Source: Linnemannia hyalina
Taxonomy: Eukaryota; Mortierellomycota; Mortierellomycetes; Mortierellales; Mortierellaceae
Assembly (NCBI GenBank): GCA_019671135.1
Contig: JAHRHY010000005.1
Coordinates: 186,001 to 250,000, forward strand
DNA length: 64,000 nucleotides
Direction of reading: 5' to 3'
In this document: positions 1-63,686 of the stretch, piece by piece
Numbering within the stretch: position 1 is the first letter of the stretch
Layout of the letters: every line of letters begins with the position of its first letter
Program-made: the position numbers and the translations under genes
The notes under the pieces: generated by a model
What the model was told of the DNA's origin: nothing
Databases searched by the model: none
The model's input: the letters and a program-made list of their open reading frames with translations, nothing else

Positions 1-7733
<7,733 letters not shown>

Positions 7734-31451: not shown

Positions 31452-31599
31452 GCCGCACACCTTCATATCCCATCGCATTTAACCCCGCATCCTTCACGAT
31501 CTATCTTACGATATAAAAAAATAATAAATTACAAACCAAAAAACAACAATAACCTGGATGCTCCATGGCGGTGTGTATGTGTATCTGGGTGAGACCGGG

Positions 31600-31780
31600 G
31601 GTCTTTCTTGGGTCGTCCCGCTGCTGCTTTGGTAGAGGGGATGTTTTCGCTGTTGGCGCGAAGGATGGGACTGACAGAAGATGCGGAGATGTTGAGCGCT
31701 TGTGAGACCTCCTTGGTTGTTGCTCCTGCAGCTACCATTCTCATTGCCTCGTTTGTGTTTTCTTGTGTTATGCGTGGCAT
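31600..31780 (-). pseudogene. N-terminal helix-turn-helix remnant of a Tc1/mariner-type transposase
   Basis: Read leftward from an ATG at 31780, the sequence has MPRITQENTNEAMRM, then AAGATTKEVSQALNIS (a helix-turn-helix) and ends in AAAGRPKK. This is the usual layout of the first DNA-binding half of Tc1-like transposases (PAIRED-like HTH then GRPK hook). After GRPKK the reading turns to low-complexity and no second HTH or DDE catalytic domain follows, so this is a fragment. It starts about 150 bases beyond the end of the OPT gene. Confidence 0.55.
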
Positions 31781-33117
31781 CCTCTGTGTGTGTTCTAGTG
31801 ACTGTGGGTGGTGGTTTGTGGTTATTTTTTGGGTTGAAGGAAAAGGGAATATATTGAAAGAAAAAAAAAATCGAACAAGTGATGATTCAAGGTTAACGAC
31901 ATAATATCTCGTGTAGTAAAAAGGGTAATTAAAATTTATGTTGGATAATGACGCCAGAGTTCGAGTCCTTCTGGCTCGCCTCCACAAGTAGTAGATTACC
32001 TCAGCCAGATCCGTCACTTATATCAACAACCCTGGGCTATCGGAATCGACCAGTTCTGGAAATGAGCTTAGCCTCCGCCAGGAGTATCGTCCTTCATCCT
32101 CAATCTTCATCCTCACTCAAGATTTCTGGGACCACGGCGGCTTAATGCCAATTTTTCGACATTATCCCTTGATTATGATGATGTCCCTTGATGTTGTTCC
32201 TTAATGTTGTCCCTTACAAGTGTGCCGCATACCCCTATCAAGAACCCTCACAGGAACACTCACGGAAACGCTTACAAGAGGACCTAGGCAATCTTCGAAT
32301 ACACCAGCATTTTGAAACCAGACTTTCGTAAGGCCATATAATTGACTTTCGCGATTATAAGTAAGGGATGGCGGTGTTTTTTCATAACTGACCTATTTTC
32401 TCTATCTAATATTTTCGTGAAAAAAAACTGATAGTCTCGCGTGACATTATCTCGCAGGCTCCAGCTATCGCTCATGTTTTCTTCCAACGTTCAAAGACAC
32501 CGCAGAAGTTCAATGGTGCTATCACTCTCCATATCTTGGTGATATTTTTTGTCGTACTCGCCTGCCTGCACGCACACCCACGACGCAATAAATTTTTTAA
32601 AAACAAAAAAAGTACTCGCCTGCACATTTGGATCGACATTTGCTCATCCTCAATTGGCCATCCAACTAGCTCAGAGGAGTTCAAATACTGGGGTAATGGT
32701 GCAGATTTTCTGAACAAGTTAGGACTCTAATTAACATCTCTCAAGTCAGAATCTAGTGGACTCTCACAGTCATTTGGTTGTAGTTGCCATTGAATCGCCC
32801 CTTTCCCTAGGTCGTCTCTTCCCTAGTCCTAGAACGCGATGCTAACCTTGCTATTCTTCTCCCCCTTCTCCCCCTCCTCCCCCCGTCTCTACCAATCATT
32901 GGCATCTTTCTACTTCGGAACGATCACATATTGTTAAACGTGAACCGTCTTTATTTTAGCGCCTCCAAAATAAAACAAAATTTTCCGTAGATCGCGACGC
33001 GTACACTGACCACACCCAGTGATGCGTCGAAAGTACTGGTGCGTTACTGATTTACCCCTTTGTAGTGCGTAATAAAAAGATCCCTCTCTTTCTTCTCACT
33101 GACACAGGAAACGCGCT
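31781..33117. other. Repeat-rich stretch without a gene
   Basis: No gene is seen. The stretch has CCCTTGAT/GTTGTCCC-type short direct repeats (32160-32215) and, near 32735-32850, segments (CAAGTCAGAAYCT, CTAGAACGCGAYG) that recur at 62405-62440. These mark dispersed repeat material. Confidence 0.45.
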
Positions 33118-33420
33118 ATGGAACATTCAACCCCTTTAAATAAAATAAAAATTCTTACAAACGAACAAAGCATCAGCAACGCGACCTCGAATTCTAATGA
33201 AGTAAGGATTGACATCGAAGGATCAAAAAGCAATGTCGCTTTGAATGCTTGGCTGCCACAAGCCAGTTGGCACTCGTGTATCAAACTATTCCCACCTCGT
33301 CAGCGATCACGTGATAATATCGCGATTCCTTTCAACATCCTCGCTATCCCTTGATCTTGATGGTTATCCCTTACTGTTGTCCCTTACTGTTGTCCTTTGA
33401 TGCTTTCCCCTTATTCTGTC
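33118..33420 (+). repeat. Dispersed repeat fragment with conserved coding-like core
   Basis: The segment 33208-33262 reads IDIEGSKSNVALNAWLPQA. It matches, at both DNA and peptide level, the reverse complement of about 62100-62170 (DIEGPKSNVAMNAWLPHA). A CCCTTGATCTTG/GTTGTCCC motif follows in both places. The open frame from 33118 to 33354 is short and lacks any known domain, so I treat it as a mobile or gene-family fragment rather than a gene. Confidence 0.5.
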
Positions 33421-33633
33421 CATTGGTCTTTACGTCTCTTGATCTTTTTACTTTCTCCCTTTGTCCCAGCACCTTCTTGTTCTTACAGTTTTTCGGGCCT
33501 TTTTCTTTCCTCAATCTTTCCTATTTAGCATCATTAATATTTTACGTTTGTTGTAAGACATTCTCTCTTTCAAACCCACACTTTACAAATTTCAACTCAT
33601 CAACTCTACATACCAAATCCTTCTCATTCAAAA

Positions 33634-34298
33634 ATGCAGCTCCAATATCTGTTCATTATCTGCGTTCTTGTTAGTTTCGCGGCCGCTGCTCCTATGTATG
33701 TAATCACCGTCAATGCCAAAGATCTTTCTCATAGAAATACTGTGGCATTGGAGATCAATAATGGAAGAGCATCCTAGATTCAAGGGATAATTATTAGTAT
33801 TACACACAAATGCAAATAACACCGACTACGATACGGCAGCTCTCAATAGGAACAGAAGAATTGTTGAGGTCATAACTAATATGTTTTTTCTCTGTTGTTT
33901 CTTTCTTGGCATTGTCGTCCCATCTCTAATAGACCGTAGGTTGATACACAGATCCCACAGCAGCTACTGTTATATGACTGTTGTCGGGTGGGGTACGGGT
34001 ATTGTTGAGGCTGTTACTAATATGTTTTCTCTCTTTTGCTTCTTGCTTGGTATTGTCGTTCCATCTCTAATAGCTTGTAAGTTGACACACAAATCCCACA
34101 GCAGCTACTGTGATATGACTGTTGTCGAGTGGGATACGGGTATTATTGAGGCCATAACTAATTTGTTTTCTTTCTGTTGCTTGGTACTGTCGTCTATCCC
34201 TAACAGCGAGTAAGTTGATACACAGATCCCACAGCAGCTACTGTGATATGACTGCTGTCGAGTGGGACAGGAGCCTGTCGTCTAACGTACCACTCTGA
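33634..34298 (+). CDS. Small secreted protein made of tandem repeat micro-exons
   Basis: A spliced model with exons 33634-33695, 33940-33998, 34074-34139 and 34207-34298 gives 92 residues in one frame with GT/AG borders. Exon 1 is a classical signal peptide: MQLQYLFIICVLVSFAAA with an AAA-AP cleavage site. Each later exon codes for one copy of a repeat of about 22 residues with core HRSHSSYCDMTVVEWDTG (variants in each exon); the last adds RSLSSNVPL before TGA. All three introns after exon 2 onward are in phase 1, so units can be added without a frame change. Introns 2 (75 nt) and 3 (67 nt) are themselves copies of each other. The ATG has A at -3 and a CT/CA-rich leader. The mature peptide would be about 73 residues with three cysteines, one per repeat. 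Function is unknown; size, export and tandem-unit build recall fungal secreted effector-like proteins, which is inference. Confidence 0.6.
33840..34265 (+). repeat. Tandem exon-intron unit, period 141 then 133 bp
   Basis: The marker CCCACAGCAGCTACTG begins near 33954, 34095 and 34228, giving periods of 141 and 133. Each unit has an exon-like part and an intron-like part containing ATTGTTGAGG, an ACTAAT branch-type sequence and a pyrimidine run to YAG. The intron part is also present as a fourth, 5'-most copy at 33858-33932, inside intron 1, where the GT of the donor is replaced by AA. Confidence 0.8.
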
Positions 34299-35018
34299 GT
34301 TGTCGATTTTATATGATTGGTCGTGAACCTTCTAATTTCCTATCAAGAAATGGGTGATGATCCAGACATAGGATTTTGTTAAACCCCCATTAAGGCGCGT
34401 TATGACAAAAGAGGGTCCTTTGAAAAATAAATATTTTTGTATGAAGGTAACCTCGGTAGAGTAGGTAGGTGAGGTGACTGATGAAATATTGTTGGGAATC
34501 TAGACGTGGGCTAAGCAGAATGACCTTTCTCAAGACGCGACGAGAGAGGACACGGAGGGGATAGAGATGAAAGAGGAGGGAATAGGTCATTGTGAAGAAT
34601 TTGCGTGTGAAGATGAATGAACAGGTGGAGTCTATGCAAGACGATTTACACCCATTCTCCTAGTAACAGAGGATGTGTGTGATATATTTTATTATGATCG
34701 AGAAAAACAAAACAAAACAATAAATGGAGGAAACTATAGGAGCTGGACCCCTACCTAGACCAAAAGAGGTAGCGAACCCTACGCTGCCTAGATTTCTTCT
34801 AGGGTACAAAAGTCAGAGAATGAAGAAGCATTGAACAGCATACAAAAGATGGGACAACTCTGTCGGTTGCTTTTTTGTTCTCTTTTCAAGAATGCTGTTG
34901 TTACTATTTTTATTTTGTATTTTTTATGGTATGTGTCAGCAAATACCGTTTCTGTTATCATTACTTCATCACCCCCTCTAATAAGTATAGAACCACAAGA
35001 GAATCCCACAACAAAGAC
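34299..35018. other. Intergenic, no gene seen
   Basis: It holds the 3' flank of the secreted-protein gene (AATAAA-like near 34428) and, at its right end, the 3' UTR of the leftward kelch gene. Confidence 0.4.
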
Positions 35019-37746
35019 TTAATGCTGGAAGTGCTGGTTGTGCTCAGGATGCATCTGCTGAGGAGAACCCAACCCAGGAATACCGCCATTCGAATAGTTG
35101 CTGTTGGCATATCCTGGAGGCATGGGCGCGTTACCCAACAGAGGCGACGCAAACGGGTCCTGGGAAGCGTTGGCTCCTGATCTTGATGCTGTTGGTGCAG
35201 GGTATGACACCTTTGGTGTCGCACCGCCAGAAGTAGGTGGCAAGATGTAGGGGCTCGCCACGGGGGAAGCGATACCGCCAGACGAGACGCTGGAACCGTG
35301 TGTGGGGGGTGGAGGGGAGAAGTATCCGGCAGAATGTCCAGAGGAGGCACCGGGAGGGCTGACGTATCCTTGATCGAGGGGCGAGGGGCTGTTGACGGCC
35401 AGGGCTTGCATGTTGGGCGAAGGGCTTTGCATATGGATTGCGCCGCCAGTATGGTCAAGGTAGACAGGTTGGACTGCAATCGTGCCATCGGGGAGGTGCT
35501 GCATCAAGTACTGGACGTTGCCTTGTGCCTGTCCACCCATCCCAGGGGAACCGCTAGCGTTATTCAAGAGCAACTCGTCCATTCCTGCATAGGCGCCATT
35601 ATGAATCATCCCGGGGGTCGAAAGAGCAGCCCGCGCGGCGTTAGGAGACACGCGTGGTGTGGCCTTCGAATCCCGACCTGCAGTATCGCCACCCTCGGGT
35701 CTGAGGGAGGCCAGATAAGCCTCCTTCTCCATCTCGGCCTCCTTGATCTCAATCTGCTTCTGGCGACGGCGGTAGAGGAAGAGTCCGATGATGAGGCCGA
35801 GGACGGCAATTGCGCCTATGATGATTCCGATGAGTGCTCCCGTGCTGAGTCCTGAGGAGGCGCCGTTGTTGCCACCACCGAGGGGATCACTGATGGCGGT
35901 TCCGTCTGCCTTGGGCGCGTACTCGCCCATCCACTTTGAGAGCATCACATCGTAGATTTGGATGTCTTTGACGTATGCCTGCTGGCCTCCCGTTGGTGTA
36001 CTCGACATGCCTAGTGTCAAAAGAAGAGACAAGGGAGGTTATATTAATATATAGTAAATAATCGCAAGGCTTGCAGAGAATAGAGAGAGGGACAATCAAC
36101 AGTCAAGAAAAGAAAAAAAGTACCTCCAAGGACAATCATGTTGGCACCGGCAATGTTACAAGTATGCCCATTTCTTGGTGAAGTCGGGTTGGTTGGAATG
36201 ATCCGGGTCCAAGTCATGGTAATCATATCCAACGACCACAAGTCCGACAGACTCGTCTTTGCATTCGCATCATACCCTCCAAACAACAACACCTTCTTCG
36301 AATCCGTCAAAACCGTACAATGGTCCTGACGAGGCTGCGGGTACGTGCCCAATGTCAACTGAATCCCATGTATAGGGGCGGCAGGGTTGGAGACATCGAT
36401 GTAGGGCAAGGACTGGAAGGACTGGTACCCGCGTTGACCGACTGACGAGGAGAAGCCTCCAAAGATAAAGATCTTGGAGTTGTAGAGGATGGCGGAGCCG
36501 GAACTGAATTGGTTCAGGGATGTGACGCCGGGGGCGGGGGTGAGGGGGAGGGAGGCTGTCCATTGGCCGTCCTTGTAGGCGTCGACTTCGTTGGTGCTGC
36601 TGCCATCTGCCAGGGAGCCGCCGAGGAAGTATGATATTCCAGTTGCTGAGTTTGTGATCAGGTCTGCGTTCTTGCGCCCTGTCCAGCTCGCCGCTTGTCT
36701 ATTCTCGCGAAAATGGATAGGTTAGTTGGGTGTGTGGGAGAAGTTAAGTAACAAATGCAAAAAGGGGCGGCGAATAAGGAGATATGCGTGTGTACATGGC
36801 GCAGGTGGGGCGGCGTGTCGGTGCTTGTTCGATCGATTTTTGAGGGTCGACTTGTGTCCTCCCCTCTGTGTCCTTCTGCGCATGTCTCTTTTATCGGGTG
36901 TCGAAGGTATGCTCTGATAAGGTGTGTCGACTACTTTTGCTTCTTCTCTGTTCTTCTGTGAATTCCAAGATAACGCACACGTTGTCGGGCATCGCCACAT
37001 AGCTCAACTCTTCTTTTTCTTCCTTTCATTCATCTTTTCACACACTCCTCCGGATCCACAATGATTGCGTTATCCTTGTTCCCGATACCAGTCCACCTCT
37101 CATGCATGCATACGTTAATCACATATTCCTTTTGCCTTCACCCTTCATCCCCTTGACAATAGGTAAGGGCTGGTGAAATAGGAAAGGTGGCAAAAAAACA
37201 ACAATAAAGACAGCAACAGTGTACTTACGCAGCAGGGGCATTGGAAGAAGACCACACTCCCGAAGAAATCGAATAACTGTACAAGAACGGTTTGGTGCCA
37301 TCTCCCCAGGGGGCTGTAACCAGCAGCGTCGAACCATCCGCACTCATGGCTGCAGAATGTCCGCTCACTTGGGGACCCATTCCAGAGGTAGCGTTCGCTT
37401 TCGACAAGTTGATCCACGCAGCTGAAGACTTTGGCCAGGATTTCGTCATATCGAGGGCAAAGAGGTCTGAAGAAAACGTCGCAGCTCCGGCTTGGTTGAG
37501 TTGTCCGCCCTGGTAGTAGATCATTTTTTTGTTGGATGCAGAGGCGACACCCAAGAAGGCTGCAGGGGCATCGATGGCGGGCGCTGTGGGTTGAGGGGTG
37601 GCGGTGCCCGTAGGGGTTGGGAGTGCTGTGGTGGGGAGTCCTGTTGCTGGGGGTTTGGATGTTTGGGCGGTTGTTGTGGAAATGAGGGCTGAGGAGAGAT
37701 AGAGGGAGAGGATGAGTCCCAACCGACTTGCGCTAACTGCGACCAT
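35019..37746 (-). CDS. Kelch-repeat beta-propeller protein with signal peptide and single TM segment (copy A)
   Basis: A cell-surface protein of 694 residues. Exons: 37746-37229, 36698-36124, 36010-35019. A signal peptide (MVAVSASRLGLILSLYLSSA) and a Pro/Thr-rich stalk lead into kelch blades, seen as paired glycines in IFIFGGF, VLLFGGY and MIVLGG with the downstream W residues. After the propeller comes one transmembrane helix (GALIGIIIGAIAVLGLIIGLF, near 35830-35770) with a stop-transfer RRRQK, and then a long Pro/Ser/Gln-rich cytosolic tail. The domain order suggests an anchored receptor or adhesin for sugar or matrix, which is inference. An in-frame ATG at 37905 lies 53 residues before the signal peptide and is less likely. 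It is a paralogue of the gene at 42430-44798. Confidence 0.85.
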
Positions 37747-53793: not shown

Positions 53794-56081
53794 ATGATGG
53801 CACCAAGACCGCACATCCGTGTGATCATTGTTGGAGCCGGTATCGGAGGTCTCATGCTGGGCATTCTCCTCCAGAGAATGGGCGTCACTTACCAGATCTT
53901 TGAGCGTGCGCCCAAAGTTAAGCCCTTAGGTAAATTATGGTCTTTCATCGTCTTTGAGGCAAAAGTACTTGCGTTCTGCTTCCTTCTGGCTAATTGACAC
54001 TTCTCTCTGGCGATACCTTCGTTGTGAACAGGCGCATTGATGTCGATTAACTCAAACATCTTGCCGGTGTTTGAACAGCTGGGCCTGCTGGAGCGGGTCG
54101 AGGCGATCTCGCTGTTGATCTACTACACGACTCTGTTCAACGGAAAGCTGGAGAAGATTGCAGAAGTCAACACCAAGGACCACAGAGAACGGTAAGAGAC
54201 AACCTTGAAGATGACAAGAACGTGGTCTGTGTGAGATGGATGGTGGGAGAACAAGTCTCGAGAAAGAGAAAATAAATCGTCATTCCCAACCCAAAAACTC
54301 AACCCGACAACGCTCACACCATGGCACCAAACATAAAACTTGTTCTTTGACCTTCTTTCGCATCAAAAACAAACATTGAAAACGCAACTAACCAAACCTT
54401 GACTCTTTTAAAAAACAACCTTAGAGCTGGATACGACTTTCTGGTTTTCTCTCGTCCTGAACTATACGACATCCTCTTGAGCGAGATCCCTTCGGGGCGC
54501 ATCTCGTTCAACAAGCGAGTGTTGAGCATGACAAAGACCATCAACGGAACCGAGATCAACTGCTCCGACAACTCTTCCTACGAAGCCGATATTATTGTGG
54601 GGGCCGACGGGGCATATAGCTCAATACGACAGAACATTTACAGGAAGATGTCTGAACTGGGAACACTGCCGGCGTCGGATAGTAAGGACATGGCAATGCC
54701 GTACGTATGTATGGTCGGAACGACTACTCCTCGGGACCCAGAGAGGTACCCAGAACTGAAGGACTCATATACTCATATCCACCATGTGATTGGCGATAGT
54801 ACACCATACAGCGTAAGTGCTTTGGACAGGACGACATGCATGGCTTTTGCTCTTTTGCCCTTTTCACTTCCAGCTTGCAATTTAGTCATGATTGAGCCTG
54901 GGATAGAAAGGGAGACAATACCATACCACAATTTGCTAATTTCCCCCGTTTCTCTCCCTATTCCTCCTTCAAATTTTTACGGAATAATACAGTGGACAGT
55001 GATCACGATCCCAGGCAACCGATTCTGTTGGAGCGTAATGAAACAGATCGCAGACCAAGACGAGGCGCGGGAACAGCGGTTCAGGAACTCGGAATGGGGG
55101 CCCGAAGCGAACGAAGAACTGATCGAGGCCGTCCACGCGTTCCCGGTCACCTTTGGAGGCACGTTGGGGGAGATCATTAATGCTACGCCCAAGGACCGGA
55201 TCTCGAAGGTTATGCTGGAGGAAAAGCTGTTTGATACTTGGTACCATGAGAATATTGTCTTGATTGGCGATGGTAAGTCGACTGGAGGCTGTTGTTTTTT
55301 TGAGAGAGGAAGAATGAAGATGTATGTTGCGAGGAGTACATTGAAAGTATTGACTACTAACAGAATGCTACATCGAACATACATGTGCTTCGGATTTTAC
55401 TTTGTTCAACAGCATGCCATAAGGTAACAACCACACTCAACTGGTTCAAACCCTTCAACCACGCACCTCACCATCCATGATAACCCTTTTTCTGACCTAC
55501 TCCTTCATCTCTATTTACCCGTAACCAGATGCTGCCAACATCAGGACAGGGAGCGATCAATGCGATGCAGGACGCGGTGATCCTGGCCAACTGTATCTAC
55601 GACCTCGAAGATGTCCGACCCGAGTCGCTGTCGGCAGCCTTCAAGTCCTACAAGCAGCAGCGGCACAGCGAGGCCAAGAAGCAGATCACCAACAGCAAAG
55701 TCAACGCCAAAATCTCTAGCGGCCAGGTACCCTTTTTTTCTCCGCCATTGATCACATCACTTCTGTCTCACTTATCTCAATCAGTCTCACTTCAAAACCT
55801 AACAAACTCATTTCTCTCTCTCATCGCTTGACTACTCTATATTTTCATCCTCTTCCTTGTAGACGAAGGTGGATAGGGCAGTACGCCATGTAGTCCTAAA
55901 CTACATCCCTCGCTCCCTGCAAGACCGGCAATTCACAAAAGATGCCGCCTACCGTCCTCAATGCACATTCATGCAACGAGTCCCCGACAAAGGTACCGTC
56001 CCCTCTCAACCTCAGCTTCCTTCTAGAAGATATGAGGCCGAAATGGAAGCCAACCGACGACACTTTTCTCCTCCCCTTTGA
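53794..56081 (+). CDS. FAD-dependent monooxygenase, salicylate-hydroxylase-like (copy 1)
   Basis: A flavoprotein aromatic hydroxylase-type enzyme of 463 residues. Exons: 53794-53929, 54032-54191, 54425-54812, 54993-55272, 55413-55423, 55529-55726, 55863-56081. Visible motifs are the dinucleotide-binding GAGIGGL (residues about 13-19), the DG motif in VGADGAYSSIR, and the GD motif in LIGD followed by MLPTSGQGAINAMQDA. These are the three signatures of the PHBH/salicylate hydroxylase class. The 11-nt exon 5 supplies ACHK between LIGD and MLPT, exactly matching AVHK in the downstream copy. The C-terminus TFMQRVPDKG is shared. The substrate is unknown. Alternative reading: without the micro-exon the gene would be broken, but all borders are GT/AG and in frame. 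Confidence 0.88.
55413..55423 (+). other. 11-nt micro-exon in monooxygenase copy 1
   Basis: Flanked by TTCAACAG and GTAACA. It restores the frame and the conserved H-K residues before MLPTSGQ. The corresponding bases in copy 2 lie inside one uninterrupted exon (near 58201). Confidence 0.7.
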
Positions 56082-56885
56082 TACCCCCTTTTCTTTTCGA
56101 ATTTTCTCTTCTCTCTACGTTGTTTTGAGCGTATTAGTTCTTAATGGCATCGATGTGCAAGCACAACTAATAAAAATAATAATATTGTTGTTGATTCTGG
56201 GTCTCGCTGTTGCTGTTGTTATTTGATGAAGAGGAGAGTAGAGCGAAATAGCTAATGTATGACAAAGTTCGCTGTTGGAAAATAAAACAGCAACAGGATT
56301 GGTACAGGCGGGAGGGAAGGGGAATGGGCACTTTGTTGTTTTCTTCTTGTTTTTGTTTTGATACTCCCGACGTGGATTGAACTTTGATGTTCTTTTGCGT
56401 TCATGCTTGGTTGATGGGCAAGTAGACTCGACAAAGAGAGAATGGCGGAATGAGCATATTTGCGAAAGGTCGAGGACAGGAAGCATTGCTCTCAAATTTT
56501 GGGCGTCCAAGAAAAATGGTTCATTCGCCCGTCATGACTGAACATCCACTCACCCAGCATTTCCTTCCTCACACAGGTACAGTACAACACAATGCAAGTG
56601 GGTTCGATGAGCGGAACCACAAAAAAAATGAAGAAAAGTGCTCACCATGCATCTTGTAACCTGTCAAGTCTGCACCCAGTCCATCAACAAGGAAGAGAAT
56701 GTTGTGATCACAGGATTAATCAATTCCACCCATTCTTTGGACCCACCCTCTTTTTTTGTGCCTTCGGAAAGAAGAGGATCGATTATCTTTCTGCTGTTCC
56801 TTCTTCTCTTCCTCCTTCTTTTCTTCTCTTCACCACTTTTTTCACTTTCCCCTGACCTTCCACACCAACACAGCAAGAACAAAGA
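56082..56885. promoter_or_regulatory. Intergenic between the tandem monooxygenases
   Basis: 800 bases with the 3' flank of copy 1 (AATAAAA near 56168 and 56281) and a CT-rich leader at 56790-56860 before copy 2. No gene is seen. Confidence 0.5.
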
Positions 56886-58748
56886 ATGACACTTCCTCCA
56901 AGGCCTCGCCCAACCGTGGTGATCGTGGGCGCCGGAATCGCCGGTCTGATGATGGGTATCCTCCTCGACAAGATGGATATCCCTTACACCATCCTTGAGC
57001 GTGCTCCCAAAGTCAAGCCCCTCGGTATTGTTCTCTTCCCGTTTTTTTCCACCTACGCTGTTGACATTGTCATGCTACATGTATATCTTTGTCATTTCTT
57101 CTAACAACATTTCATTTTACTCGAGTAGGTGCGTTGATGAGTTTCAATGGAAACATCTTGGCGCTGTTTGACCAGCTGGGAATGCTGGATGAAGCGATGA
57201 GCATCTCGTTTAAGATCCACAGTACCAACCTCTTTGATGAGAAGCTTACCAAGCTTGCTGAAGTCAACACCAGCGACCACCACGATCGGTAAGAAAAAAG
57301 ATGCGCACAGGGACAACTGAAGCGCACTCTCACACGTTCAACATCCCAGACAAACATAAACACAATCGCTCAACATCTAACCTTCTTTTTTTTGGATATG
57401 GTGCAAACGACAGCACGGGATACGACTTTATCGTCTTCTCACGCCCAGAACTGTACGAGATCATCCGGAAACGAGTCCCCGAGGAGAAAGTTCTGATGAA
57501 CAAAAAGGTCACCGCCATCAAAAAGACTTCCACCGGCGTTTCTGTCTCCTGCTCCGATAACACCACCTACGACGGACATATCCTTATCGGTGCCGATGGT
57601 GCCTACAGTACCGTTCGTCAGAAGTTGTATAGCGAGATGGAGGCTAAGGGAGTGCTTCCAAAGTCGGATGGGGAGGATTTGGCGATGCCTTATGTATGCA
57701 TGGTCGGAACTACGACCCCCCAGGATCCTAAGAAGTATCCGGAGCTCCAGGGACCTACCACGCATATTCACCATGTCATTGGAGATGGTTCTTCTTATAG
57801 CGTACGTTTGTTTGTACTCGTGAACTCTAACATCGTTCTTTTCTAACAACCACCAACACTTTTCTCTTTTATGACCTTACTAACCAATATCTTCTATATC
57901 ATTCCAATGGACATAGTGGACAGTGATCACAATCCCAGGAAACAGATTCTGCTGGAGCGTGATGCAGCAGATCACAGATCCCGAAGAAGCCAAAGCCCAA
58001 CGCTTCCGCAACTCGGAATGGGGTCCCGAAGCAACCGAGTCCATGATCGCCGCCGTCCGTGGCTTCCCCACAACTTTCGGTGGTGGCACCCTGGGCGACA
58101 TTCTCGACGTAACCCCCAAGGATGTGGTCTCGAAGGTCATGCTGGAAGAGAAGCTGTTTGACACTTGGCACCACGACAACGTTGTGTTGATTGGAGACGC
58201 TGTGCACAAAATGCTGCCTACCTCAGGACAGGGCGCGATCAATGCGATGCAGGATGCGGTGGTGTTGGCTAATTGCATTTATGATTTGGAGGATTTGAAG
58301 CCCGAGAGTTTGGACGCTGCGTTCGAGTCTTATAAGCAGCAACGTCATGGAGAGGCCAAGAAGCAGGTTAATAACAGTGCCGTCAACGCCAAAATCTCCA
58401 GCGGCCAGGTATGCGCACTGCTATCGTGCTTCATCCGTCCTGCCACTCTTTCTTTCGAATGTCAAGGAAAGAGATATGTTTACGACTCACTCACCACCTT
58501 TTTTTCTCCCTTCCTTTTCTCCCTCCTTTCTGCAGACGTTCCTTGACAGATGTGTGCGTCACGTAGTCCTGAACTGGATCCCCAAATCCCTCCAAGATCG
58601 CCAATTCACAAAGGACGCCGCCTACCGCCCTCAATGCACATTCCTCCCCCGCATTCCTGACATGGGTAGCGTTCCCTCCCTCCCGCAACTCCCTTCCAAA
58701 CGCTACCAGGCCGAGCAAGCTGCTGCCGCTAACTCTGCTGCTGTTTAG
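56886..58748 (+). CDS. FAD-dependent monooxygenase, salicylate-hydroxylase-like (copy 2)
   Basis: 463 residues in five exons: 56886-57024, 57129-57288, 57414-57801, 57917-58408, 58536-58748. It has GAGIAGL, GADGAYSTVR and LIGDAVHKMLPTSGQG, and is similar along its whole length to copy 1. Exons 1-3 have the same borders and exons 2 and 3 the same lengths (160 and 388 nt) as copy 1. Exon 4 here (492 nt) equals copy 1 exons 4+5+6 plus one codon. Same strand, 800 bases apart: a tandem duplication old enough for clear sequence divergence. Neither copy has a signal peptide or TM segment at its start, so both are probably cytosolic. Confidence 0.9.
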
Positions 58749-59136
58749 AAGATTGCTTTTGGCGGTGAAGTTTCGTAGATAGACGACTTTTTATATATAC
58801 ACATACATTTCATTACACGCGCAAAGATCATTTTCTTGTGCGTTGTTACATAGCTTTCATTCATACCTCATTCAGTGCCCTTAATAAATTGCAGAGGCGT
58901 TCAGTACAGTTCCGGCTGACTGCGCCCATCCAGGAGCCCATCGCATTGATTTTGATATGGAGGCGAAGTTAAATGGATAGGATGTTTTGGCGACAAGAGG
59001 CAACGTTGCTTGAGGATATAATTCACAATAACCGCAGTCATTATTGTGAGGCAAGGAGAAGGGGTAAGAACTTATAGACGTAGCGACTGTCTACAAGATT
59101 TTCATTTTTTAGTTGGTCTTCCATATCAAGAAACAA
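58749..59136. other. Intergenic, no gene seen
   Basis: 3' flank of monooxygenase copy 2 (AATAAA near 58883), then AT-rich sequence that was probably the promoter of the broken gene that follows. Confidence 0.4.
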
Positions 59137-61910: not shown

Positions 61911-62467
61911 TACTTTCCGCACTAAACAAATAGAGACATACCAGACAGCACGCGAACCCCAGTGTTGGGACAACACAAGAGGACATCAAGGGACAAGATC
62001 AAGGGACACGTAAAGAAAAAAATCAAGTAATGGAAAAGGATTAAGGAATGCTGGTATGGGGCCTAGATTCGTCTCAGAAACACACCAATGGCAAGAGTCA
62101 CAACAGGCATGTGGCAGCCAAGCGTTCATAGCGACGTTGCTTTTTGGTCCCTCGATGTCGGTTCTTCCTACCATACTGAAGCAGAATCCAGCAAGCGTTG
62201 GATTGTTCAACCACAATTAGGGGACAAGACCTGGAGTTTAGACCGTCGTGGGACAGGTTAGATTCACCTATTGATAAAATGCTGTTGCAATAGTAATATA
62301 ACTTAGCACAATAGGAACCGTTCATTCTGATAATTGGTATTTGGGCCTGCCTGAGCAGGCGATGGCCCGAAGCTATCATCCGTTGGGTTATGGCTGAACG
62401 CCTTCAAGTCAGAACCTGTGCTAGAACGCGACGTTTACCGCCTTTTCAATTTTTGGTTGAATACGAT
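61911..62467. repeat. 557-bp spacer of the inverted repeat, carrying dispersed repeat sequence
   Basis: Unique to the centre of the palindrome. 61970-62170, read on the minus strand, has the DIEGPKSNVAMNAWLPHA core and CCCTTGATCTTGTCCC motifs shared with 33208-33420. 62405-62440 has CAAGTCAGAACCT and CTAGAACGCGACG shared with 32735-32850. It therefore contains mobile or repetitive material. Confidence 0.6.
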
Positions 62468-63686
62468 CATGGAAAAGGTATACGTCACATAAAAAGCGAC
62501 AAAGCGGCTAAAGAAACCAATGCATAATGCTTTCCATGCTGCAAAAATTAATCCCTCTCATTTTTTTTGGATTTATCCCCTTGATCTTTTTGGCCTCCAC
62601 CTTCTCAATGTGCCGTTCATCCCTCTCATTCCTGTCCCAAATGACTCCCTCATTCGTTAATCTTTTGTGCCCTGATGAAAACGGTTTGACTTGTTTCTTT
62701 TTTTACGACCCTCTTTACGTATGTAAAAAAAGTCGCACGCAGCCAGCGTCCTGTATTGACGTACGCCTATTTCCACCTCAAGGGTCTAGATTCGCAACAG
62801 CCCTCACACTACGCTCGCAACATCTACTGCATGAACCATCGCAAGAGCGTCACATACTCCTATCAGGAATGGTAAGCGAAAGCCTGGCGGTGAGAAGTAC
62901 CAAGATACCGTCGTGGGTCATAAGATATCGCGAGAAAAAAAATACACACAAATCACTGGTTCAACACGTTGTCAATTTTTAATTGTGACCTATCAGGCTA
63001 TTACCCTGCATTGCCCTTGCATTGCTCTCCAATCCTGGAATTCCATAGACTTTATGTTCATAAATGTACACCATGGGAGTAAAAGTAAAGCTAGTCACAC
63101 GCACCACGTTGCAAACCAGCAAGCAAGACGTCTGCGCAGACGACAGGCTTGTAGTCCCAATTAATATTGGCGATCACCATCATGAAGCACCGCTTGGCAT
63201 TGGTGCAACACATCCATTTATGTGTGCGTCGATTGTTCGTCGACTGTTTGTCAGTGTGATATGGAGATGTGAACGCTGAAGGATATATCCAAGTTACACA
63301 CAAGTCAGTCAGTCAAGCCCTGCATAGGCGAAACGAATCGCACTGAAATGTTGTGCGGACAAATACCTGTTTGTGCGCTAGATGAATTGATGGAGCACTC
63401 TCTCCTACCTGGTAATCCTCATAAAGCGAAACTTAATCTCGCGGGAAAAAAAAGAGCATGCGGGGTGATTTATATCCCGATACGCGACCATTGAATGTAC
63501 ATCTACACGAGGACATATTTCCTAGACTACCGATCCCAAAGGCTATCATGAACTCGCGGCATTTATGCATTACAACATGAAACATATATTCAACGGGCCC
63601 CACTAGCACCCTGAGTCTCTTTATCTATCCAATGTTTATGTTTTCCTATCTTCAGTTTCCAACGGGAACCAGGGCTACCTCACAGG

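Follow-up and report, generated by a model that had tools for sequence, protein, structure and literature searches.

Micro-exon genes (MEGs) of Schistosoma are described as encoding secreted proteins in which the signal peptide is kept and little else is conserved, and as being built from many short exons that are mostly multiples of three (PMC10526429). Most MEG exons measure 15 bp, within a range given as 6–81 bp in the text and 3–81 bp in the abstract of that source, with 10–20 such exons per gene and introns of up to 5 kb (PMC10526429). The bicycle genes of aphids are presented as fast-evolving putative effector genes with many small internal exons of the same phase (PMC9168663), and crystal structures are reported for two bicycle proteins (PMC13041983). 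Exons of a single nucleotide are reported from Fusarium CYP621A (PMC12940212) and from Arabidopsis (PMC4674806). According to the account of the Trichoderma Xlr2 micro-exon, no functional micro-exon was on record for filamentous fungi until Xlr2, and Schizosaccharomyces pombe had been the sole fungus in which micro-exons were tested (PMC11121469). The KEX2-processed repeat proteins (KEPs) of fungi are described as having been sought by three features, namely a signal peptide, repeats within the protein, and KEX2 sites separating those repeats (PMC6339444).

Here we describe a locus whose predicted architecture resembles that of these micro-exon genes. It lies in a window of 64,000 nucleotides (the whole stretch of DNA analysed, C44:186001-250000) within a genome of 51.5 Mb in 50 contigs, whose content, including a fungal-specific transcription factor domain and Bmt2, fits a fungus. 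The locus is flanked by long minus-strand open frames at 31532-32017 and 35022-36038. With a probability of about two in three, we read it as a gene for a tiny secreted peptide, composed of a signal-peptide exon, micro-exons of 3 nt and a short last exon (Table 1). The preliminary description of this DNA had also proposed a small, probably secreted product assembled from tandem exon units, and this outline appears right, while the exons themselves are drawn differently below.

Table 1. Features of the locus and of a neighbouring gene, in window coordinates; splice borders are predicted and marked by hyphens.
Feature	Position	Strand	Length (nt)	Remarks
Exon 1	33634-33695	+	62	phase-2 end; MQLQYLFIICVLVSFAAAAP, a likely signal peptide, plus AT; donor GTATGT at 33696
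Intron 1	33696-33932	+	237	branch-like ACTAAT, A at 33879; acceptor is the first AG after it, at 53 nt
Tandem array	33860-34267	+		three units of about 141 nt, spaced 141 and 133 nt
Micro-exon 1 (ACC)	33933-33935	+	3	TAATAG-ACC-GTAGGT
Intron 2	33936-34073	+	138	holds the first SHSSYC repeat of the preliminary description
Micro-exon 2 (CTT)	34074-34076	+	3	TAATAG-CTT-GTAAGT
Intron 3	34077-34206	+	130	holds the second SHSSYC repeat
Micro-exon 3 (CGA)	34207-34209	+	3	TAACAG-CGA-GTAAGT
Last intron (weak)	34210-34270	+	61	holds the third SHSSYC repeat; lacks a CTAAY branch site
Last exon	34271-34298	+		…G AGC CTG TCG TCT AAC GTA CCA CTC TGA; acceptor GACAG in register with TATTAG of C48
Micro-exon of a FAD-dependent monooxygenase gene	55413-55423	+	11	CATGCCATAAG; splices to …DACHKML…, compare …DAVHKML… in the unsplit paralogue

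The tandem array (match identity 84%, TRF score 553) is real, as the preliminary description had stated, and sits 3' of the ATG at 33634. The same ATG had been taken as the start of a signal peptide, an assignment borne out by the hydrophobic N-terminus that it opens, with a Kyte-Doolittle mean of 2.99 over LFIICVLVSFAA; judged by this hydrophobicity, the leader is likely a signal peptide. A whole-genome DNA search yielded one other large match, C48:2250672-2252027, which carries seven units and is about 82% identical to the window over 33517-34267 and 34282-34756; these two are the complete loci known. Exon 1 differs between them by three synonymous and no non-synonymous substitutions. A kept leader, judged a signal peptide by its hydrophobicity, is found together with a variable predicted mature part, the combination that marks micro-exon genes. 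A third, short match on C13 (G000:C13:358393-358466, or L008 1394-1467, minus strand) corresponds to window positions 33622-33695, namely exon 1 with 12 nt upstream, and to the equivalent bases of C48, and the similarity ends at the exon-1 border in both comparisons. This piece has a stop codon in its leader and no GT beyond the border; it is possibly a retrocopy or a decayed copy, and if a retrocopy, it might derive from a third member. Past the exon-1 match, the phase-2 frame of the C13 relic stays open for a stretch.

The conservation of the 5' part also bears on the main rival that remains, namely an unspliced single-exon gene for a 47-residue secreted peptide (33634-33777) ending in …NNGRAS, with the array lying non-coding downstream, or an isoform of our preferred model that retains intron 1. 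This open reading frame and its stop are kept at both loci with 89% identity, including a run of 33 identical nucleotides (33745-33777) that contains the stop codon. However, past the signal peptide the differences number five non-synonymous to three synonymous, as opposed to none to three before it, although these numbers are small; the strong donor GTATGT marks the border of the signal peptide, exon 1 is all that the C13 relic retains, and the array is left unexplained. On balance, we regard the 47-residue frame as an unlikely account of the locus. A search of the protein collection with the 47-residue sequence returned no homologues.

The multi-exon reading is instead drawn from the units themselves. 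In all ten units of the two loci, a triplet lies exactly between the AG of TAA(T/C)AG and a donor-like GTAAGT (GTAGGT once). The window units carry the triplets ACC, CTT and CGA; those of C48 carry TCC, CCA, CGG, ACT, TGG, ACT and TGG, with C6 and C7 as recent duplicates, so that the two-unit ACT-TGG block is present twice. Across the ten units, the triplet is the most variable three-column window, with a mean pairwise difference of 0.73 as compared with 0.17 in the other columns and 0.46 in the next separate three-column window, and none of 200,000 random column triples was as variable. Taken singly, its columns take the first, second and joint fourth places, with another column at 0.67 between them; when C6 and C7 are dropped, the eight remaining units give 0.86, 0.71 and 0.68 as compared with 0.18 elsewhere, the value of 0.68 being tied with one other column. 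On a tree built from the other columns, the triplet requires 10 changes where 2.4 would be expected (Poisson p 2e-4, a post hoc value, the triplet having been chosen after inspection). An intron position that had simply escaped constraint should not outpace its surroundings about fourfold; diversifying selection on a codon flanked by conserved splice signals would be expected to produce this pattern. On the same tree, window unit 1 (ACC) groups with the first C48 unit (TCC), and read in phase 2 both triplets specify Ile (ATA/ATT), a synonymous difference.

This hypervariability weighs against the alternative that the micro-exons are mostly skipped or that the gene is decaying, such that exon 1 would join the last exon directly and the array would represent an expanding intron minisatellite. 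Exons of 3 nt are indeed hard to include and easily skipped, the frame stays open without any micro-exon at both loci, and the last intron of the window is the one without a branch site. Untranslated triplets should nevertheless diverge like the intron rather than about four times faster, and donor and acceptor are conserved in 10/10 units; we consider general skipping or decay improbable. A tandem non-coding RNA, structured or snoRNA-like, would likewise accommodate tandem, conserved units, but Rfam gave no match over 33300-34800 at E up to 1, four of the eight aligned units, when folded, gave z-scores of +2.4 to –1.6 with no consistent signal, and the invariant columns include the splice-like signals, leaving this reading with hardly any credibility.

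The placement of the putative splice signals is consistent with 3-nt exons, three of which are predicted in the window and seven in C48. The micro-exon acceptors are the first AG 45–53 nt after a CTAAY in 10/10 units, and when both strands are counted, 8 of the window's 8138 AGs are so placed, three of them being those of the array units (43 of 8138 at a wider spacing of 24–60 nt). As a yardstick, ten introns were placed by eye in two tandem FAD-dependent monooxygenase genes (53800-58750). These introns measure 102–233 nt, their donors include GTAAGT, GTAAGA and GTATTG, and 9/10 have a YTRAY candidate 24–60 nt from the acceptor; only 6/10 obey a strict first-AG-after-CTAAY rule (33–70 nt), so the rule is not a strict one in this genome. 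One of these genes contains an 11-nt micro-exon with an intron on either side (Table 1), whose counterpart region in the tandem paralogue is unsplit (58193-58218). Given this support from the paralogue, the genome very likely splices micro-exons, and the two regions may represent an intron gain or loss pair.

At the 5' and 3' ends, the two loci agree in frame and differ in the strength of the last intron. The homologue of intron 1 in C48 measures 233 nt, and an AAC codon lies 13 nt into the last exon at both loci in the same frame. The last intron of C48 spans 112 nt with ACTAAC 35 nt before the acceptor, whereas that of the window is 51 nt shorter and has five AGs ahead of the proposed acceptor. 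With these earlier AGs and without a CTAAY, the window copy may be impaired or may use another 3' end. Where the last exons begin, their divergence sits at the edge of an indel and weighs little as evidence.

The preliminary description had assembled the same region differently, as a signal peptide followed by three repeats of about 22 residues (SHSSYC…VEW), each on an exon of about 66 nt with acceptor TAATAG and donor GTATTG, all joined in one frame through phase-1 introns. The TAATAG/TAACAG acceptors are present and are common to both models, all three SHSSYC stretches of the window are open in the frame assigned to them, and GTATTG is acceptable as a donor here, since intron F2-1 of a FAD gene begins with it. 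However, the repeats need phase 1, and the strong exon-1 donor is in phase 2; when joined to repeat 1, it reads ATA CCG TAG and stops immediately. The signal-peptide frame holds eight GTs, of which GTTTCG at 33674 alone lies in phase 1, and its use would cut the signal peptide after 13 residues. Furthermore, 4/7 C48 units (C1, C3, C4 and C6) carry a stop or a frameshift in the SHSSYC frame, and over its first 60 nt the window unit pairs show synonymous to non-synonymous differences of 0:7, 1:6 and 1:4. As these differences are nearly all non-synonymous, that frame gives no sign of protein constraint. The model also leaves unexplained the conserved GTAAGT (GTAGGT in unit 1) located 3 nt past each acceptor, absent from that description, and the hypervariable triplet. 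On account of the phase clash and the broken C48 units, we set the 66-nt exons aside as quite improbable: the exon of each unit is most likely 3 nt, the introns are probably in phase 2, and the SHSSYC…VEW stretches most likely lie within introns. A continuous, unspliced repeat frame of 140 codons (33791-34213) was considered separately and rejected, because unit spacings of 133, 134, 140 and 142 nt across the arrays break the frame, and also because it has no scoring homologue (25 candidates in the protein collection, none at E <= 10).

Under the preferred 3-nt reading, joining exon 1, the three micro-exons and the last exon would yield MQLQYLFIICVLVSFAAAAPIPFESLSSNVPL from the window, and exon 1, seven micro-exons and the last exon at L007:3448-3469 (L007 being the sequence piece that contains the C48 locus) would yield MQLQYLFIICVLVSFAAAAPIPHGLGLGSRLPNL from C48. 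Both predicted products are stop-free and short, with a signal peptide and about 12–15 further residues, and the candidate mature peptides would be (P)IPHGLGLGSRLPNL or (P)IPFESLSSNVPL. Should micro-exons be included alternatively, the eight skip combinations of the window would give eight distinct products, and the 128 of C48 would give 80, all of them in frame and free of premature stops. Were an intron downstream of a micro-exon retained, the reading would run immediately into xxG TAA or TAG, and retention of intron 1 would lead into the 47-residue frame.

In the mechanism that we propose from these features, each unit of about 130–140 nt would supply a branch site, a T-rich stretch, the acceptor TAATAG and the donor GTAAGT, and the spliceosome would join the phase-2 exon 1 via the micro-exons to the short last exon. 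Because the exons are 3 nt long, duplication, loss or skipping of a unit would amount to one residue with the frame intact, whatever the intron length. The earlier proposal that unit number can change without a frame break is thus retained for duplication and skipping, but each added unit would contribute a single codon instead of a cysteine-bearing repeat of 22 residues. The ACT-TGG duplication of C48, which reads as LGLG within GLGLG of the predicted product, may illustrate this way of peptide growth. Signal peptide and splice signals are kept while the putative exonic triplets diverge fast, a pattern as for a peptide under diversifying selection, with antagonism, self/non-self recognition or host interaction as candidate functions. 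The units, the paralogue, the hypervariable triplets, the conserved splice-like signals, the agreement in frame and the likely micro-exon nearby are read from the sequence itself, and splicing as drawn here, secretion, alternative inclusion, selection and function are inferred. More tentatively, and with the odds somewhat against it, the locus could be a codon-cassette array, in which each variable position of the peptide lies on its own 3-nt exon within a duplicating intron unit, and gain, loss and skipping of units vary the peptide codon by codon, the triplet being subject to diversifying selection or targeted mutation. If the preferred 3-nt reading is right, the locus would be an extreme of micro-exon architecture, with hypervariable one-codon exons in tandem in a genome with fungal features, and would test how the spliceosome handles exons nearly without exonic sequence. 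It would also offer a frame-safe route for evolving peptide length and sequence, and would point to peptide genes of a kind that routine annotation and homology searches with proteins could be expected to overlook.

Compared with the systems described above, the likeness to Schistosoma MEGs and aphid bicycle genes is one of architecture as published, not of compared sequences. It is distinct from the MEGs described in that the predicted internal exons here are all 3 nt and lie in near-identical units of about 130–140 nt, and from the bicycle genes, described as having about 17 exons on average. Bicycle proteins are also much larger than the peptide proposed here. The published CYP621A, Arabidopsis and Xlr2 cases indicate that splicing can accommodate very small exons, also in fungi, but they are reported as single exons and not as tandem arrays of variable codons; among the titles and abstract openings of the top matches of a literature search, no fungal gene with 3-nt exons in a tandem array appeared. 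The locus would share with KEPs, as these are described, short secreted peptides and variable repeat number. The predicted products, however, contain no repeated cores beyond GLGLG in C48 and no KR or RR site for KEX2 in either product; in the SHSSYC frame, RR occurs in 1/10 units (window unit 1) and KR in 0/10. With neither KEP protein repeats nor KEX2 sites in the predicted products, we place the locus with the micro-exon genes, as a probable variant of their architecture by resemblance rather than by descent.

Neither the 47-residue sequence nor the 140-codon frame found a homologue in the protein collection, so no outside species confirms the gene; of the spliced products, that of C48 was searched, against its own genome. 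Further arrays were sought genome-wide with three strict three-unit patterns requiring GTAAG donors, each set against a backwards control. The pattern with gaps of 106–136 nt gave seven matches (five in C48, one in C25 and one in C13; control five), and in the C13 match, on inspection, no such gene was recognised. Gaps of 75–105 nt gave one match, in C25 (control six), and gaps of 44–74 nt gave 13 (control nine), of which, by letters alone, ten are one A-rich repeat, two a repeated pair in C33 and one lies in C49. The window's own units escape the three-unit pattern because one of their donors is GTAGGT. When up to three mismatches were allowed, a unit pattern of 21 bases recovered the ten known units and 26 weaker matches (control 82). 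No third micro-exon array was recognised in the genome with these GTAAG-donor patterns, which would overlook any array whose donors or exon sizes differ.

Two further elements were observed. The A-rich repeat, 'GTAAGACATAGAAAAAAA…', is dispersed in near-identical form at ten places, one in C5, eight in C13 (for example C13:556455-556599) and one in C33. Near the end of the window, a stretch of 509 nt (62065-62573) matches Rfam RF02543, the eukaryotic LSU rRNA, in its 3' part (260 bits, model positions 2390-3399) and may be a displaced rDNA fragment or relic.
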